A DNA stretch of 48,215 bases from assembly GCA_025352065.1 (NCBI GenBank), contig JANXUC010000148.1:1-48215 (forward strand), written 5' to 3'. The notes below the pieces were generated by a model that worked only from the letters and a program-made list of their open reading frames with translations, did no database searches and had not been told where the DNA came from. Both the position numbers and the translations under genes were made by a program. Numbering within the stretch: the first letter of the stretch is position 1; each line of letters starts with the position of its first letter. This DNA comes from Acidobacteriaceae bacterium. GTDB lineage: Bacteria; Acidobacteriota; Terriglobia; Terriglobales; Acidobacteriaceae. Shown piece after piece: positions 12,505 through 21,783 of the stretch.

Positions 12505-12828
12505 TCAGTATAAATCCAGAAATCCCTTCATGGCCTGATCAACGGCTCGCAACGTCACCGAATCCACGCGCCCAATCCGCTGTCCCACCTTAGCCCGCAG
12601 CACGGTCGTAGTCTTGTCCACCATGACCTGAGAGATTTTCCTAAGGCCAGTATTTTTCCCCGGCTGAACCGTCACGCGAAATAGCGGAGTATCGTGGATC
12701 TCGCTGGTGAGCGGCAACACCGTCACCGACGGATGAGGGTCAAAAGCATCCGCCTGCACAATCAACGCTGGTCGTGGTTTGCCATAGTCGCCGGTGACCG
12801 CAATCGTCACCAGGTCTCCGCGTTTCAC
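12505..12828 (-). CDS. MazF/PemK-like toxin (type II toxin-antitoxin)
   Basis: 107 aa of the PemK/MazF SH3-like barrel: an R-G-D-L-V-T start, G-K-P-R-P-A-L-I-V-Q-A (the family P-R-P motif), V-L-P-L-T-S and the C-terminal G-R-V-D-x-x-T-L helix. Family members are usually sequence-specific mRNA interferases. Its ATG overlaps the antitoxin stop by 4 bp (antitoxin first), the standard translationally coupled arrangement. Confidence 0.87.
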   Translation of the reverse strand: MKRGDLVTIAVTGDYGKPRPALIVQADAFDPHPSVTVLPLTSEIHDTPLFRVTVQPGKNTGLRKISQVMVDKTTTVLRAKVGQRIGRVDSVTLRAVDQAMKGFLDLY

Positions 12829-13097
12829 TTCCAGCCCTCTGTATCGCTCACATCCTGCATCCAGCGGAAGACTTCCGTTTCATCCGACGAGGCGGCAAGG
12901 AGTTGGGATTGCCGGTGCGCCTCAGCCGCGAACTTGCGCCGCTTGGCGTGTTCCACATAAGCGCGCATCAAGTCCCGCAGGATTTCTGCGACGGGCTTGT
13001 TCTCCGTCTCCGAAGCGGCCAGAAACTCGGCCTTCAAGACGGGATCGATGCGAAGGTTGAGGGTCTCTCCCTTGGGGTTTTGCGTCGTTCTGGGCAT
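12825..13097 (-). CDS. Ribbon-helix-helix antitoxin
   Basis: 90 aa. The N-terminal T-L-N-L-R-I-D-P-V-L-K-A-E-F strand-helix, followed by P-V-A-E-I-L-R-D-L-M-R-A-Y, matches a ribbon-helix-helix DNA-binding domain. The C-terminal part (from about residue 55) is the likely toxin-neutralising tail. It is first in the operon; two adjoining palindromes 15 bp upstream of its ATG are probably its operator, so autorepression is expected. Confidence 0.83.
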   Translation of the reverse strand: MPRTTQNPKGETLNLRIDPVLKAEFLAASETENKPVAEILRDLMRAYVEHAKRRKFAAEAHRQSQLLAASSDETEVFRWMQDVSDTEGWK

Positions 13098-13193: not shown

Positions 13194-14336
13194 CTATCCC
13201 TTCAGCAACTGCCGCGCAATGACCAGCCGCTGAATCTCGCTGGTACCCTCGCCAATCGTGCAGAGCTTCACGTCGCGATAAAATTTTTCCGCCGGATAGT
13301 CTTTGATAAACCCATAGCCACCATGAATCTGCACGCTCTCGTTGGCGCAGCGCACCGCAACTTCGCTGGCATAGAGCTTTGCCATCGACGATTCCTGCGT
13401 GGTTTTCATACCCGCATCTTTCATCGACGCTGCACGCATCGTCAGTAATCGCGCCGCATCCAGCTCGGTGGCCATGTCGGCGAGCTTCCATTGGATCGCC
13501 TGAAATTCCGAAATCGCTTTTCCAAACTGCTTACGCTCCTTGGAATACTTGAGCGCACACTCATACGCGCCCTGCCCGATTCCCAGCGATAATGCAGCAA
13601 TCGAAATACGTCCGCCATCCAGAATCTTCATGGCGTCGATAAAACCGTCGCCCTCTTTTCCCAAAAGATTTTCATTGGAGACAAAGCAGTCTTCAAAAAT
13701 CATCTCCGAGGTATCGCTGGCTCGCAGGCCAAGCTTGTTTTCTTTTTTCCCGGGGCGAAATCCCTTGGTTCCCTTCTCGACCACAAACGCGGACAATCCG
13801 TGCGTTCCCGCCGCGCGGTCGGTCACGGCGATCACCACCATTACATCCGCATAGCGGCCATTCGTGATAAACGTTTTCGTTCCATTTATGACGTGCCCGC
13901 CGGTGGTGCGCACGGCGGTGGCTCGAGCGCTGCCCGCATCCGAGCCGGACGACGGCTCGGTCAATCCCCAAGCCCCAATGAACTCGCCCGACGCCAATTT
14001 CGGGATGTACTTCTTCTTCTGCGACTCGTTCCCTGCCACAAAAATGTGATTTGATCCCAGCGATGTATGAGCCGCCACGATGATTCCAACCGACCCATCC
14101 ACGCGGGACAGCTCATCAATCGCGGTTACGTATTCCACGTAGCCCATACCGGCGCCGCCATACTCCGCGGGGAAAATAATGCCGAGCAGCCCGAGCTTGC
14201 CAAGCTCCTTAACCGTGCTGAGCGGAAACTCGCTGGCCTCGTCCCACTTCATTACATTGGGAAGAATTTCGTGGGCGGCAAATTCGCGCACCGTCTTCTG
14301 CAAGTGCAGCTGTTCGTCATTGAGCTGAAAATTCAA
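13194..14336 (-). CDS. Acyl-CoA dehydrogenase (short/branched-chain type)
   Basis: 380 aa from a TTG start at 14334-14336, which has GGAG 7 nt upstream and gives the usual family length beginning F-Q-L-N-D-E-Q. The frame stays open upstream to an ATG at 14483, but that adds about 49 residues unlike the family. FAD-binding and substrate motifs are present ([18 protein letters not shown]) and the catalytic Glu lies in G-E-G-T-S-E-I-Q near the end. It oxidises an acyl-CoA to the 2-enoyl-CoA and passes electrons to ETF; the chain length cannot be fixed from sequence. Proximity to mce/meaB fits branched-chain amino acid or fatty acid breakdown. Confidence 0.9.
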
Positions 14337-14527: not shown

Positions 14528-14752
14528 CTACTTCTTCACTACGATCTTGACCAGATCTTCCACGCTCGGCATGCTGCCGGATTTTTGATAAGAGAAGATT
14601 TCAACCCCGTCACGAAAGATATCCATCTGCCCGCCGCTTCCCCAGGAAGTCTTGGCGTTCACATCGGGCAATTTGCTCAGCGCCTTCCTCAGGCGACCCG
14701 CCTGAAATAGAATTTCGATTCAAAGTGGGCACCGCTTGATCTCGACGTCCAT
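14528..14752 (-). CDS. Candidate selenoprotein, SelW/Rdx family, with in-frame TGA as Sec11
   Basis: 74 residues if TGA at 14720-14722 is read as selenocysteine. The ATG (14750-14752) follows the hemW TAA with no gap, and GGAGG sits 8 nt upstream, inside hemW. The frame runs beta strand V-E-I-K-R, redox motif Cys8-Pro-Leu-Sec11, an amphipathic helix (I-L-F-Q-A-G-R-L-R-K-A-L), then G-S-G-G-Q-M-D-I-F-R-D-G-V-E-I-F-S-Y, a short S-G-S-M-P-S-V segment and a final helix. This is the complete thioredoxin-like Rdx layout (SelW/SelT/SelH relatives), where C-x-x-U or C-x-x-C follows the first strand. A hairpin fitting a bacterial SECIS lies just downstream of the TGA. Family members are thought to be thiol redox proteins. 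The alternative is a pseudogene with a nonsense mutation, but the stop lies exactly at the redox position and the rest of the frame is intact. Confidence 0.8.
14684..14710 (-). promoter_or_regulatory. Candidate bacterial SECIS hairpin
   Basis: Starts 9 nt after the TGA. The 5' arm CUAUUUCAGGCG pairs with the 3' arm CGCCUGAGGAAG: nine Watson-Crick pairs, two G-U pairs and one A-A mismatch, with a GGU apical loop at 14696-14698. The loop is 21 nt from the TGA and begins with G, within the spacing and loop rules known for SelB-recognised bacterial SECIS elements. The hairpin lies inside the coding sequence, as bacterial SECIS must. Confidence 0.72.
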
Positions 14753-15952
14753 TTACTGTGCCTCCACGGTTAGAAATCTCTGAAACACTTCGTTCGACAA
14801 CATTCGCCCTGCCATGGTCAGGCACAGGCGCTGGTCGTGTCGCTGCAACAAACCATCTTCTACAAGTTCTTCGATGACATTCGTAAGGTTCTCGATTCCA
14901 GATTGGCCGAATTCCTGCCCAAGTTCCTGCAGACACACGCCTCGCGTCAATCGCAAGCCCAGAAAGAAACTCTCTTCCAGCGCTTCGCGTCGACACACCG
15001 CAGTTCGCACCAGAGGTGCATTCTGCAAAAACGGATTCAGTTCATCCGCGCCCGCGAAGCGCACTGCAACCGCATCGCCACCTTGCCTCGAAGCATTTGG
15101 AGCCGCCAACAACATCGAATGCGCATCCACGCCGAATCCGAAATACGGTTTACGTTCCCAATATTTCAGGTTGTGCCGAGACTCCGAACCTTCTCGCGCA
15201 AAGTTCGAGATCTCATATTGATGGACTCCCGCTTGCTCCAGGCGGTCACACGCCGCTATATAAAAGTCCGCGCTGAGATCGTCTTCCGGGACAAAATGAG
15301 CGTGATACTTCTGGCCACCCGCCATTAGCTCACGCCCCAGCCGCGAATCCCCATCCACTTCCAGCATGTAGACGCTGACATGGGGGACACCCGAAGCAAG
15401 TGTTTCTGAAACGGAATATTCCCAGCTTTCCGCCGTTTGGTGGGGTAGGCCTGCGATCAAGTCCACGTTGATGTTTTTAATGTCAGACTTGCGCAACTGA
15501 GAAATGTCTTCCAATACCTTCGCCCGCGTATGCAAACGCCCGACCGCCGCTGCCTCTGTGTCCACCCAGGACTGCACGCCCAAGCTGACGCGATTCACGC
15601 CGCATCGCAGAAAAGCCGTCAACATTTCTGGAGTCAACGTTCCCGGAGCGCACTCCACTGTGATCTCGGCGTCATGGTCAACCTCGAATTTGTCCCTCAG
15701 CGCCCGAAACATTCGCTCCAGGTCCGCTGGCTCAAGAATCGTTGGTGTGCCGCCACCAAGGTAAATCGAGTCCACCTGCCGCTCGAACCGCCCTCCCATA
15801 GAAGCAGCCGTCTGGTCCGCTGCGGCAATGTCCGTGCAAACATGGTCGACGTAACGCGAATACATCGCTCGCGACACCACTCCGGTCGAAAAGTTGCAGT
15901 AGCTGCACTTGCTCTTGCAAAACGGAATCGAAATGTAAATCCCCAGCGGCAT
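14753..15952 (-). CDS. hemW: Radical SAM heme chaperone HemW
   Basis: 399 aa. The radical SAM cluster motif is Cys12-x3-Cys16-x2-Cys19 in I-P-F-C-K-S-K-C-S-Y-C-N-F. The HemN/HemW features G-G-G-T-P-T and G-V-Q-S are present, and a HemN C-terminal domain follows. The extra N-terminal cysteine region of true HemN oxidases is absent and the protein starts right at the motif, which favours HemW, a heme-trafficking protein, over coproporphyrinogen dehydrogenase. The stop codon is immediately followed by the ATG of the candidate selenoprotein, so the two are probably one transcript. Confidence 0.88.
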   Translation of the reverse strand: MPLGIYISIPFCKSKCSYCNFSTGVVSRAMYSRYVDHVCTDIAAADQTAASMGGRFERQVDSIYLGGGTPTILEPADLERMFRALRDKFEVDHDAEITVECAPGTLTPEMLTAFLRCGVNRVSLGVQSWVDTEAAAVGRLHTRAKVLEDISQLRKSDIKNINVDLIAGLPHQTAESWEYSVSETLASGVPHVSVYMLEVDGDSRLGRELMAGGQKYHAHFVPEDDLSADFYIAACDRLEQAGVHQYEISNFAREGSESRHNLKYWERKPYFGFGVDAHSMLLAAPNASRQGGDAVAVRFAGADELNPFLQNAPLVRTAVCRREALEESFFLGLRLTRGVCLQELGQEFGQSGIENLTNVIEELVEDGLLQRHDQRLCLTMAGRMLSNEVFQRFLTVEAQ

Positions 15953-19268: not shown

Positions 19269-19550
19269 ATGGAAGTCCACCTCACACCCGACCAAAAAGC
19301 CTTCGTTCGCCAAGCGATAGAAAGCGGACGCCTTCACCACGAGGAAGACGCGGTTCTCGAAGCCCTGTCTTTGTGGGAAGAGCGAGAGCGCAAGCGTGAA
19401 GAGCTTCTGGCATTCATCGACACGGCTGAGACGTCTCTTGCACGCGGCGAAGGGCGCATCCTAACCGAGGAATCCATGCGCCAGCTTGCAGAGAATGTGA
19501 AACAACGCGGCCGCGCTCGCCTCGCATCAGAGCAAGTCCCTCCCCGCTAA
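19269..19550 (+). CDS. ParD-like antitoxin
   Basis: 93 aa. The N-terminus E-V-H-L-T-P-D-Q-K-A-F-V-R-Q-A-I-E-S-G-R is the ParD-type ribbon-helix-helix variant, followed by a charged helical C-terminus (E-E-R-E-R-K-R-E-E-L) that would wrap the toxin. It should repress its own promoter. A TTGACA box at 19230-19235 with a weak TAGCCT 18 bp on could be that promoter. It overlaps the toxin by one base (TAATG). Confidence 0.82.
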   Translation: MEVHLTPDQKAFVRQAIESGRLHHEEDAVLEALSLWEERERKREELLAFIDTAETSLARGEGRILTEESMRQLAENVKQRGRARLASEQVPPR

Positions 19551-19846
19551 TGGCACACCGTTTCGCGCCGGAAGCCGAAACCGAAATTGAGGATATTTGG
19601 CGGTATATCGCTCAAGAGAGCGGCAGCTTTGACATCGCGGATCGGCTCATCGATACCCTCACCGAGCGCTTTTTCCTTCTTTCACGATACCCGCATATCG
19701 GCCGCCACCGTGACGATCTGCGCTCCGGCTTGCGCAGCTTTCCCGTCGGCGAATACATCATCATTTACCGAGTAGACGGCAAGGATGTACTCATCCTCCA
19801 TGTATTTCGCGGCAATCGTGACATCGAAACGCTATCGGCGCAGTGA
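19550..19846 (+). CDS. ParE/RelE-superfamily toxin
   Basis: 98 aa of the ParE type: R-F-A-P-E-A-E-T-E-I-E-D-I-W-R-Y-I-A helix, then F-x-L-L-S-R-Y-P-H-I-G-R, R-S-F-P-V-G-E-Y-I-I-I-Y-R-V and V-L-I-L-H-V-F-R-G-N-R-D. ParE toxins target DNA gyrase; RelE-like relatives cut mRNA, and the lack of the usual RelE catalytic basic/aromatic end favours ParE. It is coupled to the antitoxin by a 1-base overlap and followed 23 bp later by repeat copy B. Confidence 0.83.
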   Translation: MAHRFAPEAETEIEDIWRYIAQESGSFDIADRLIDTLTERFFLLSRYPHIGRHRDDLRSGLRSFPVGEYIIIYRVDGKDVLILHVFRGNRDIETLSAQ

Positions 19847-19869: not shown

Positions 19870-19958
19870 CCCCTGTAAAATCATCTATTCACCAACACCC
19901 ACTCCCAACCCATGGCCGCCGAAGAGGAAGTTCTTGGAAAAGCGTATGACAGTCGCCT
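19870..19958 (+). repeat. Direct repeat copy B: start of the intact ABC exporter
   Basis: Partner of 19078-19166. It contains the upstream region and first 15 codons of the exporter. Together the two copies bracket the ParDE-type module (19269-19846). Confidence 0.92.
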
Positions 19959-21783
19959 GATGCGGCGGCTGCTGACCTATCTGCGCCCTTACAAGGTGCA
20001 GACGGCGATTGCGCTGGTGGCCATCATTCTCAAGGCGCTGGCGGACACGCTGGGGCCTTACCTGACCAAAATTGCCATCGATAAATATCTGGTGCGCACG
20101 CCCGCATCGGCTGGGATGCTGGATCGCTACCTCAGTCCGATTCCTCTGACCGGCATTGCGCAGGTGGCGACGCTGTATGTGGGCATGATTTCGTTCAGTT
20201 TTATTCTCGAATTCGGCCAGACCTACTTCATGCAGTGGACTGGGCAGAAGGTGATGTTCGATCTGCGCAGCCAGATTTTCCGCCACTTGCAAACTATGCA
20301 CATCGGCTTCTACGACAAGAACCCCGTCGGACGCCTGGTGACGCGGGTTACGACGGACGTCGATGCCTTGAATGAGATGTTTACGGCTGGCGTGGTTTCG
20401 ATTTTTGAAGATGTCTTTGTGCTGGCCGGCATCATCGCCATCATGTGCAAGATGAACTGGCGGTTGGCGCTGATCACGTTCGCTGTGCTTCCGCTGATCG
20501 CATATGCGACGAATATTTTTCGCCATAAAGTGCGCGACTCCTATCGGCGCATTCGTACCGCTATTGCCAAGATCAATTCGCACTTGCAGGAACACATCAG
20601 CGGCATGGTGGTGCTGCAACTGTTCAATCGCGAGAAGCGGGCTTACAACAAATTTTCCGACGTGAACTACGCGCACATGGATGCGTACAAAGACGCGATC
20701 ATGGCGCATGCGGTTTATTACCCTGTTGTCGAAGTCTTGTCGGCGGTGGCGATCTCGGCGGTTATTTGGTTTGGCGGAAGCAGCGTCTTGAAGGGCATTA
20801 CGACCTTGGGCGTGCTGGTTGCGTTTATGCAATATGCGCAGCGCTTCTTCAAGCCCATTCAGGATCTGAGTGAGAAGTACAACATTCTGCAAGCGGCGAT
20901 GGCGTCTGCTGAGCGGGTGTTCAAGCTGTTGGATACGCCCGCGGAGATTACTTCACCCGCTGTCACCCAAAAATCAGACGGCCCGGGACGCATTGAGTTC
21001 GATCACGTGTGGTTCTCTTATAGAAACGATGGAACGCCAGATTGGGTTTTGCGCGATGTGAGCTTCACGGTCGAGCCGGGGACGACCGCCGCGTTCGTCG
21101 GACACACGGGAGCAGGCAAGACCACCATCATTTCCCTGCTGCTACGGTTTTACGACGTCCAGAAGGGTGCGATTCGGATTGACGGCGTCGATATTCGCGA
21201 AATGGATTTAGTCGATCTGCGTCGACGTTTTGGCGTCGTTTTACAGGATCCATTCTTGTTTTCAGGGACTGTCGCGCAGAACATTCGGCTCGGTTCGGAG
21301 TGGATTACGGACGCAGCGATTGAGAAAGCTGCTGGAGAGGTTAACGTCCTGGACTTCATTCGTACGCTGCCCGACGGCTTCAACGAAAAGGTGCGTGAAC
21401 GCGGCAGCACGCTTTCTACCGGCCAAAAGCAGCTGATTTCTTTTGCGCGCGCCCTGGCGCACAACCCGCAAATTCTAGTACTCGACGAGGCTACGTCTTC
21501 GGTCGACACCGACACAGAATTCAAAGTGCGCGATGCACTCACGCGCATGGTGGAAGGTCGAACGTCGCTGGTGATCGCGCATCGTTTGTCCACGATTCAG
21601 CGCGCGGACGCCATCATCGTCATGCACAAAGGACAGGTACGCGAGATGGGATCACATCAGGAACTGCTGGCCAAGCGCGGCGTGTACTGGAAACTTTATC
21701 AACTGCAATATAAAGATCAGGAACTACCAGCCGGGCCGGTTGAGGGCGTTACCCCGCAAGTCATCGCTGGAGCAAGCGATTGA
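19912..21783 (+). CDS. ABC exporter, fused permease and ATPase (MsbA/MdlB-like)
   Basis: 623 aa half-transporter. The transmembrane domain spans about 25-320 (six helices), the nucleotide-binding domain about 360-600. Walker A G-H-T-G-A-G-K-T is at 397-404, Q-loop Gln445, signature L-S-T-G-Q at 501-505, Walker B I-L-V-L-D-E at 521-526 and the H-loop His follows in A-H-R-L-S. It works as a dimer in the inner membrane. Nearby lpxB suggests lipid A or another lipid as cargo, but drug export cannot be excluded. The 5' end is duplicated upstream of a toxin-antitoxin module, so the native promoter may have been altered by that event. Confidence 0.9.
   Translation: MAAEEEVLGKAYDSRLMRRLLTYLRPYKVQTAIALVAIILKALADTLGPYLTKIAIDKYLVRTPASAGMLDRYLSPIPLTGIAQVATLYVGMISFSFILEFGQTYFMQWTGQKVMFDLRSQIFRHLQTMHIGFYDKNPVGRLVTRVTTDVDALNEMFTAGVVSIFEDVFVLAGIIAIMCKMNWRLALITFAVLPLIAYATNIFRHKVRDSYRRIRTAIAKINSHLQEHISGMVVLQLFNREKRAYNKFSDVNYAHMDAYKDAIMAHAVYYPVVEVLSAVAISAVIWFGGSSVLKGITTLGVLVAFMQYAQRFFKPIQDLSEKYNILQAAMASAERVFKLLDTPAEITSPAVTQKSDGPGRIEFDHVWFSYRNDGTPDWVLRDVSFTVEPGTTAAFVGHTGAGKTTIISLLLRFYDVQKGAIRIDGVDIREMDLVDLRRRFGVVLQDPFLFSGTVAQNIRLGSEWITDAAIEKAAGEVNVLDFIRTLPDGFNEKVRERGSTLSTGQKQLISFARALAHNPQILVLDEATSSVDTDTEFKVRDALTRMVEGRTSLVIAHRLSTIQRADAIIVMHKGQVREMGSHQELLAKRGVYWKLYQLQYKDQELPAGPVEGVTPQVIAGASD

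Follow-up and report, generated by a model that had tools for sequence, protein, structure and literature searches.

The gene that lies directly after hemW in the window, by which we mean the whole 48,215-nucleotide stretch of Acidobacteriaceae DNA analysed here, is very probably a functional selenoprotein gene. Its in-frame TGA at codon 11 would be read as selenocysteine (Sec), and its product would be a member of the RCxxU clade of the SelW/Rdx family. This is the best explanation of the locus, and Sec insertion is argued from the machinery in the genome, from conservation and from a hairpin that follows the UGA.

Gene structure, Sec machinery and predicted fold

The minus strand reads ...GTGGAGGCACAGTAA ATG GAC GTC GAG ATC AAG CGG TGC CCA CTT TGA ATC..., and the read-through protein is MDVEIKRCPLUIEILFQAGRLRKALSKLPDVNAKTSWGSGGQMDIFRDGVEIFSYQKSGSMPSVEDLVKIVVKK. 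Table 1 collects the features of the locus. As the original prediction had it, the ATG (14752-14750) stands directly 3' of the hemW stop (TAA, 14755-14753) with GGAGG 8 nt upstream, the TGA at codon 11 (14722-14720) is the only one in the frame, and no further stop is encountered before the TAG at 14530-14528. Ordinary gene calling would end after ten codons. Between 14300 and 14800, a scan for promoters and terminators turned up nothing promoter-like, and its two terminator-like sites lie on the opposite strand. An SD-like tetramer within 20 nt before the start was seen in 16 of the 34 clade genes, which is uninformative.

Table 1. Features of the Sec-Rdx locus, with positions in the window
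Feature	Position	Strand	Remarks
hemW	14753..15952	-	TIGR00539, 256.9 bits (cut-off 205.4); directly upstream, stop abuts ATG
GGAGG, ribosome-binding-like	14761..14765	-	within the hemW 3' end; 8 nt 5' of ATG
Sec-Rdx gene, RCxxU clade of SelW/Rdx family	14528..14752	-	74 codons + TAG
In-frame TGA, codon 11, inferred Sec of C8-P-L-U11	14720..14722	-	TGA in the same column in 34/36 aligned clade members
Inferred bacterial SECIS hairpin	14687..14707	-	nine-pair stem with GGU loop in the window; five-pair core 14690-14704
Acyl-CoA dehydrogenase (ACAD)	13194..14336	-	Pfam N, M and C domains; downstream of the Sec-Rdx gene, same strand

The Rdx layout that had been claimed for the read-through product can be recognised, but the protein is a divergent member of the family. 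It matches Pfam Rdx (PF10262) over residues 3-71 with an E-value of 3.8e-4 and 21.0 bits, slightly missing the curated cut-off of 22.6. It also falls below the cut-offs of two NCBIfam SelT/SelW/SelH models, with 20.1 bits vs 34.2 for TIGR02174 (CXXU_selWTH) and 19.9 vs 88 for the other. The redox motif of the family, C-x-x-U or C-x-x-C, is present as C8-P-L-U11, with U11 coded by the TGA.

The AlphaFold model built from the clade alignment has a mean pLDDT of 94.0 and a pTM of 0.80. The modelled protein has a thioredoxin-like fold, in which the CxxU redox motif is flanked by the first strand (residues 2-7) and the first helix (residues 12-26). When the model was compared with the PDB, ranks 1-21 were chains of six bacterial proteins (2p0g, 2obk, 2oka, 2fa8, 2ojl and 3dex); by their titles 2p0g and 2fa8 are SelW-related, and 2obk is named a SelT/selW/selH domain. 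The bacterial SelW-type structures 2p0g, 2obk, 2oka, 2fa8 and 2ojl are the best structural matches (TM-score by query length 0.66-0.84), although their identity to the window protein is 21-27% and they presumably carry Cys, not Sec. Mouse SelW (2npb) and human MIEN1 / C17orf37 (2ljk) have the fold in common with it (TM-score by query length 0.72 and 0.69) and differ in being eukaryotic and in their identities of 14 and 18%. Among solved structures, 2ljk is the top sequence match of the clade profile (E 2.2e-6).

The original prediction named selA, selB, selC (tRNA-Sec) and selD as the genes to look for, and all four are present in the window's genome (4.25 Mb in 183 contigs, 98.5% complete). 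The tRNA-Sec scores 75.4 bits (cut-off 47) and is called tRNA-SeC with anticodon TCA by ARAGORN, while selB, selA and selD score 383.6, 545.1 and 368.6 bits respectively, all above the curated cut-offs. Only the top match of the RF01852 search was counted because this search also picks up other tRNAs, the second match (47.3 bits) being tRNA-Ser by ARAGORN. TGA serves as the normal stop of 4 of the 11 window genes checked, namely MeaB, FabF, the ORF at 19550-19846 and the ABC transporter at 19912-21783. Besides, the selD gene of this genome (L018, C80:71799-72731) has one in-frame TGA in the context AAG-U-ASK, a further candidate Sec codon.

Conservation of the TGA codon, the frame and the hairpin

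Relatives of the gene were searched at several levels. With PF10262 as the query against 392 genomes of the phylum, which we take to be Acidobacteriota, 125 matches were found in 114 genomes; exactly one TGA was contained in 113 of the matches and none in 12. The TGA stood at C-x-x-U in those match rows that were read. Since 113 of 125 Rdx matches carry one TGA, SelW-like selenoproteins are common in the window's phylum. The 12 TGA-less matches comprise 8 full-length (L027-L034) and 4 partial ones, and one of the partial ones is the part of the gene of genome G265 that lies 3' of its TGA. The full-length ones form a Cys-type Rdx group with the motif YCTQC; in G061, one genome of this group, the selA-type matches are weak only (best 6.2e-8).

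At an E-value of 0.001 the PF10262 query missed the window gene itself. Single-sequence queries were too weak, as the search with P0001 matched 6 of 396 phylum genomes, and the first contig scan with a single sequence returned zero relatives; a three-row alignment (the window, G265 and G119 sequences) later reached the clade. Searched against 397 genomes of the order, the three-row profile gave 42 matches in 40 genomes, with one TGA in 38 and none in 4, of which 2 are partial. By reading, 27 of the 40 matched genomes carry the RCxxU gene or its non-Sec orthologue. In 12 others the match covers positions 1-52 or 2-52 only, and G408 is partial. Two of these 12 short matches were read (L104 and L105) and belong to another Rdx type with CPTU and a longer C-terminus. 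Together with L066, L067 and L073 they make up a group of Rdx proteins whose motif is C-[PD]-T-U and whose C-terminal part is longer; TGA occupies the Sec place in 5 of 5, and in the tree described below the group is set off by a branch with SH-aLRT 99. When the 36-row profile of the clade was run against 277 phylum genomes, three matches exceeded 80 bits (G265, G119 and the window's genome), and the next was G077 with 59.7 bits.

A scan of contigs with peptide patterns from which codon 11 had been excluded returned 8 loci, and in 8 of 8 the codon at that position is TGA. These loci retain the Rdx C-x-x ahead of the TGA, and by name they come from Acidobacteriaceae (3), Bryobacteraceae, Terriglobia, Rokuibacteriota (2) and Nevskia soli. 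The 34 TGA-bearing genes used for the clade alignment (the window gene and 33 others) were chosen by the pattern RC..U and a profile score of at least 50 bits; because of this preselection, the share of TGA is taken from the order profile search and the pattern scan. The earlier argument that the TGA is not a random nonsense mutation is upheld by the single TGA in 38 of 42 order matches and by its same place in 8 of 8 pattern-scan loci. The original prediction also asked for a check of homologues for Cys or TGA at codon 11. It was found that TGA is there, and the lone exceptions without Cys or Sec are two orthologues (L098 and L102) among the 36 clade members. With the sel genes present and the codon kept in homologues, neither of the two outcomes named beforehand as refuting the prediction was obtained. 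Omitted from the clade set were L103 (from G408, a partial match whose upstream part is unreadable as the motif), a partial match in G503 (C72) and the second match in G462 (C49, one TGA).

The frame after the TGA was examined by substitution patterns. All pairs of the 34 genes were compared, and in the 15 closest ones the uncorrected pN/pS 3' of the UGA ranged from 0.15 to 0.38. By these ratios, purifying selection acts on the frame 3' of the TGA in close pairs of clade genes. Against L080, the nearest row of the tree though a distant one, the window gene differs at 26, 19 and 42 sites in codon positions 1, 2 and 3 respectively over the 63 codons that follow the UGA. This excess of third-position differences is in keeping with protein constraint.

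In bacterial selenoprotein genes, a stem-loop with a small apical loop containing G stands just past the UGA, according to PMC1088965. The window has a hairpin of this kind at nt 16-36 (the U of UGA counted as 1), with a nine-pair stem and a GGU loop; the onset of the core stem is 15 nt past the UGA. The 34 stretches from the UGA on align without gaps. All five core pairs (columns 19-23 with 29-33) are formed in 24 of the 34 genes. When synonymous codons were redrawn 300 times with the clade family's own codon usage, the full core arose in 2.6 genes on average and in 7 at most. Counted by cells, 147 of 170 are paired, vs a mean of 98 and a maximum of 117 in the redraws, and the mean MFE of nt 16-36 is -8.8 vs -4.0 in 60 synonymous redraws. 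Pairing drops from 86.5% to 22-50% when the 3' side is shifted by 1-3 columns. The column pair 19-33 is C-G in 13 genes, G-C in 12 and unpaired in 9, and column 33 falls on the third position of a Leu codon. Loop column 25 is G in 34 of 34 genes, but this G also opens a codon that mostly specifies Gly or Val. Measured against the redraws, the hairpin is preserved far beyond synonymous codon choice, and part of the sequence conservation there may stem from the protein.

The full five-pair core in that register is missing in 10 of the 34 genes, 5 of which (L093, L094, L096, L097 and L099) have a bulged version in the MFE fold. In a plain shuffle test of 57 nt around the window UGA, the stability was no greater than that of the shuffles (z -0.72), and RNAalifold on the clade alignment returned 3 pairs only, at -2.3 kcal/mol. 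Three of the five measures of a pair-count test beat all 500 shuffles, while 29 of 500 shuffles reached the count of pairs changed on both sides and 500 of 500 that of further pair types. As the sequences are related, the hairpin counts are not independent.

The distribution of the gene was compared with that of the Sec machinery. SelA scores above the cut-off in 173 of the 397 order genomes; of the 40 that the three-row profile matched, 38 have it at an E-value of 1.9e-116 or better (Fisher p 5e-13, uncorrected for phylogeny). G497 and G674 have a clade-profile gene and no selA match; as they do have tRNA-Sec matches, at 63.1 and 64.9 bits, selA may be missing from these assemblies. In G453, selA is present and the best tRNA-Sec match, at most 49.4 bits, could be tRNA-Ser. 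The tRNA-Sec search covered 9 relatives, and the selB and selD searches covered the window's genome.

The RCxxU clade and its neighbourhood

The clade set consists of the 34 TGA-bearing genes and 2 non-Sec orthologues, and a Cys form at the Sec site occurs in 0 of 36. The products of the 33 other TGA genes are 25-46% identical to the window protein, and those of the two non-Sec orthologues are at 23 and 25%. In the alignment R7, C8, U11, A18, G41 and G49 are nearly invariant and L21 is invariant, and all of them are present in the window protein. Pfam Rdx is matched at an E-value of 0.01 or better by 34 of the 36 members, the best being 8.8e-11.

A tree by quick search from 68 rows and 78 columns places the 36 RCxxU rows on one side of a branch with SH-aLRT 100 and the 32 other Rdx rows on the opposite side, the latter being canonical rows (a subset), YCTQC and other Rdx. 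Duplicates (L057, L068-L070 and L075-L077), L036, L037, L060, L103 and rows of fewer than 60 residues were omitted, and loci unmatched by the A2 profile are absent from the tree. The window protein sits on a long branch (1.14), with L080 (46% identity) as the nearest row. Both kinds are carried by the genome G119, which has a canonical SelW (L068) and an RCxxU gene (L069). The window protein has in common with the bacterial SelW-like selenoprotein (PF10262) the Rdx match, the thioredoxin-like fold, the place of C-x-x-U and a length of about 75 residues. It differs in that the RCxxU clade has R for Y before the motif and one extra residue after Sec, in forming a separate clade whose window member scores under the curated cut-offs, and in the frequent ACAD neighbour. 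By its sequence the gene is a member of an RCxxU clade apart from ordinary SelW, within the limits of a quick tree search on 78 columns that took in only part of the canonical rows.

The genes around the locus were annotated with curated models. HemW, MeaB, methylmalonyl-CoA epimerase and TsaB each score above an NCBIfam equivalog cut-off; FabF does so for the subfamily model NF005589 and falls short of the equivalog TIGR03150. The window ACAD is recognised as such by its Pfam domains and scores below all listed NCBIfam cut-offs. G265 encodes a Sec-Rdx protein (L057) with 37% identity, and FabF, HemW, ACAD, MeaB, the epimerase and TsaB surround that gene as in the window. By tblastn, an ACAD homologue lies 3' of the clade gene on the same strand in 18 of the 36 loci with 77-85% identity, the match at L078 being 68% over a 37-residue end piece. 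The match begins within 300 nt in 14 of the 18 loci and at 582-1385 nt in 4. No ACAD match was found in the other 18 clade loci, nor at any locus outside the RCxxU clade in the same search, and the link may be undercounted because the flanks were 1.5 kb at most loci.

The two non-Sec orthologues come from genomes with selA. In L098 (1501-1731, plus strand) the redox pair is lost (TPLFP), and in L102 (1477-1710, minus strand) Glu stands at the Sec site (CFWE). Both are among the 18 loci with ACAD downstream, which suggests one and the same gene with its Sec lost.

A few other neighbours were seen. A Polyketide_cyc2 gene lies 5' of the clade gene in L057 and L086. Between MeaB and ACAD the window has PemK/MazF-like toxin and MazE-like antitoxin genes (12505-13097, minus strand), and this pair is not among the listed ORFs of L057 at that place. 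Another small two-gene pair at 19269-19846 (plus strand) looks, by eye, like a type II toxin-antitoxin system.

Alternative explanations and meaning

If the locus were a pseudogene, a Cys codon would have mutated to TGA and the frame downstream would be decaying. The long branch of the window protein would fit such decay, as would its scores just below the Pfam cut-off and well below those of NCBIfam. Against it stand the single TGA in 38 of 42 order matches, the low pN/pS downstream of the TGA in close pairs, the concentration of the window-L080 differences at third codon positions and the preserved hairpin, and we regard this reading as highly improbable. Still less credit can be given to a TGA that is read as an ordinary amino acid in a reassigned code or suppressed by a non-Sec tRNA. 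Nothing but the open frame speaks for it, whereas 4 of the 11 checked window genes terminate in TGA, the genome has the full Sec system, and loci found without codon 11 keep the Rdx C-x-x before the TGA. Equally far-fetched is that the UGA is a stop and the ten-codon ATG-TGA frame a leader or coupling element for the downstream gene; an ATG abutting the hemW stop would suit this role, but the protein-level conservation after the TGA and the Rdx fold would be left unexplained.

A different question is whether the gene is just a fast-evolving orthologue of ordinary SelW with no separate clade. The fold and the Pfam family are shared, with nearly all clade members matching Rdx, and the tree has the limits given above. 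We nevertheless consider this unlikely, in view of the SH-aLRT 100 split, the coexistence of both kinds in G119, the extra residue after Sec and the R for Y before Cys in the RCxxU rows, and the ACAD matches that tblastn returned only at RCxxU-clade loci.

Taking the locus as a Sec-encoding gene of the RCxxU clade, ribosomes finishing hemW would start at the abutting ATG. The hairpin 3' of the UGA would recruit SelB, which would bring selenocysteinyl-tRNA-Sec to codon 11; the general mechanism of SelB-driven Sec insertion at a hairpin is described in PMC1088965 and PMC9312934. The product would be a 74-residue thioredoxin-fold protein with Cys8-Pro-Leu-Sec11 just ahead of the first helix. From the Rdx fold, the most likely activity is a switching of the Cys/Sec pair between thiol/selenol and selenenyl-sulfide; the pair would reduce a peroxide or a protein disulfide, and cellular thiols would re-reduce it. 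As the clade gene is repeatedly upstream of one ACAD, we may guess that its job is tied to acyl-CoA oxidation, for example redox protection of the pathway. A bolder and rather doubtful proposal would make the RCxxU clade a selenoprotein family of separate function, supplying a selenol redox partner reserved for an ACAD branch of acyl-CoA metabolism in the window's order, and so dependent on selenium that no Cys form evolved.

Descriptions of bacterial SelW-like selenoproteins go back to at least 2005-2006 (PMC1088965, PMC1794560). In the accessible part of PMC1794560, Cys homologues of SelW-like proteins are said to be very rare or absent among organisms that contain Sec, and 3 families with 4 selenoproteins are counted for Acidobacteria, with names not given there. 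Three known selenoproteins, likewise not named in the accessible part of the source, are mentioned for Occallatibacter riparius (PMC12013277), and one of them may be of the RCxxU kind. A 2026 review has an entry for SELENOW-like with PF10262 and CxxU (PMC13188914). In the open-access literature searched, within the parts of the sources that were accessible, we found no description of a SelW-like selenoprotein whose motif is RCxxU or whose gene is linked to an ACAD.

The 113 one-TGA matches in the 392-genome search make SelW-like selenoproteins a routine finding in the window's phylum. To our knowledge, the role of the SelW-like family in bacteria is still open. The RCxxU clade would be an added branch of Rdx, all of whose members seen here either carry Sec or have lost the redox pair, and it gives the SelW-like family a genomic link, to an acyl-CoA dehydrogenase.
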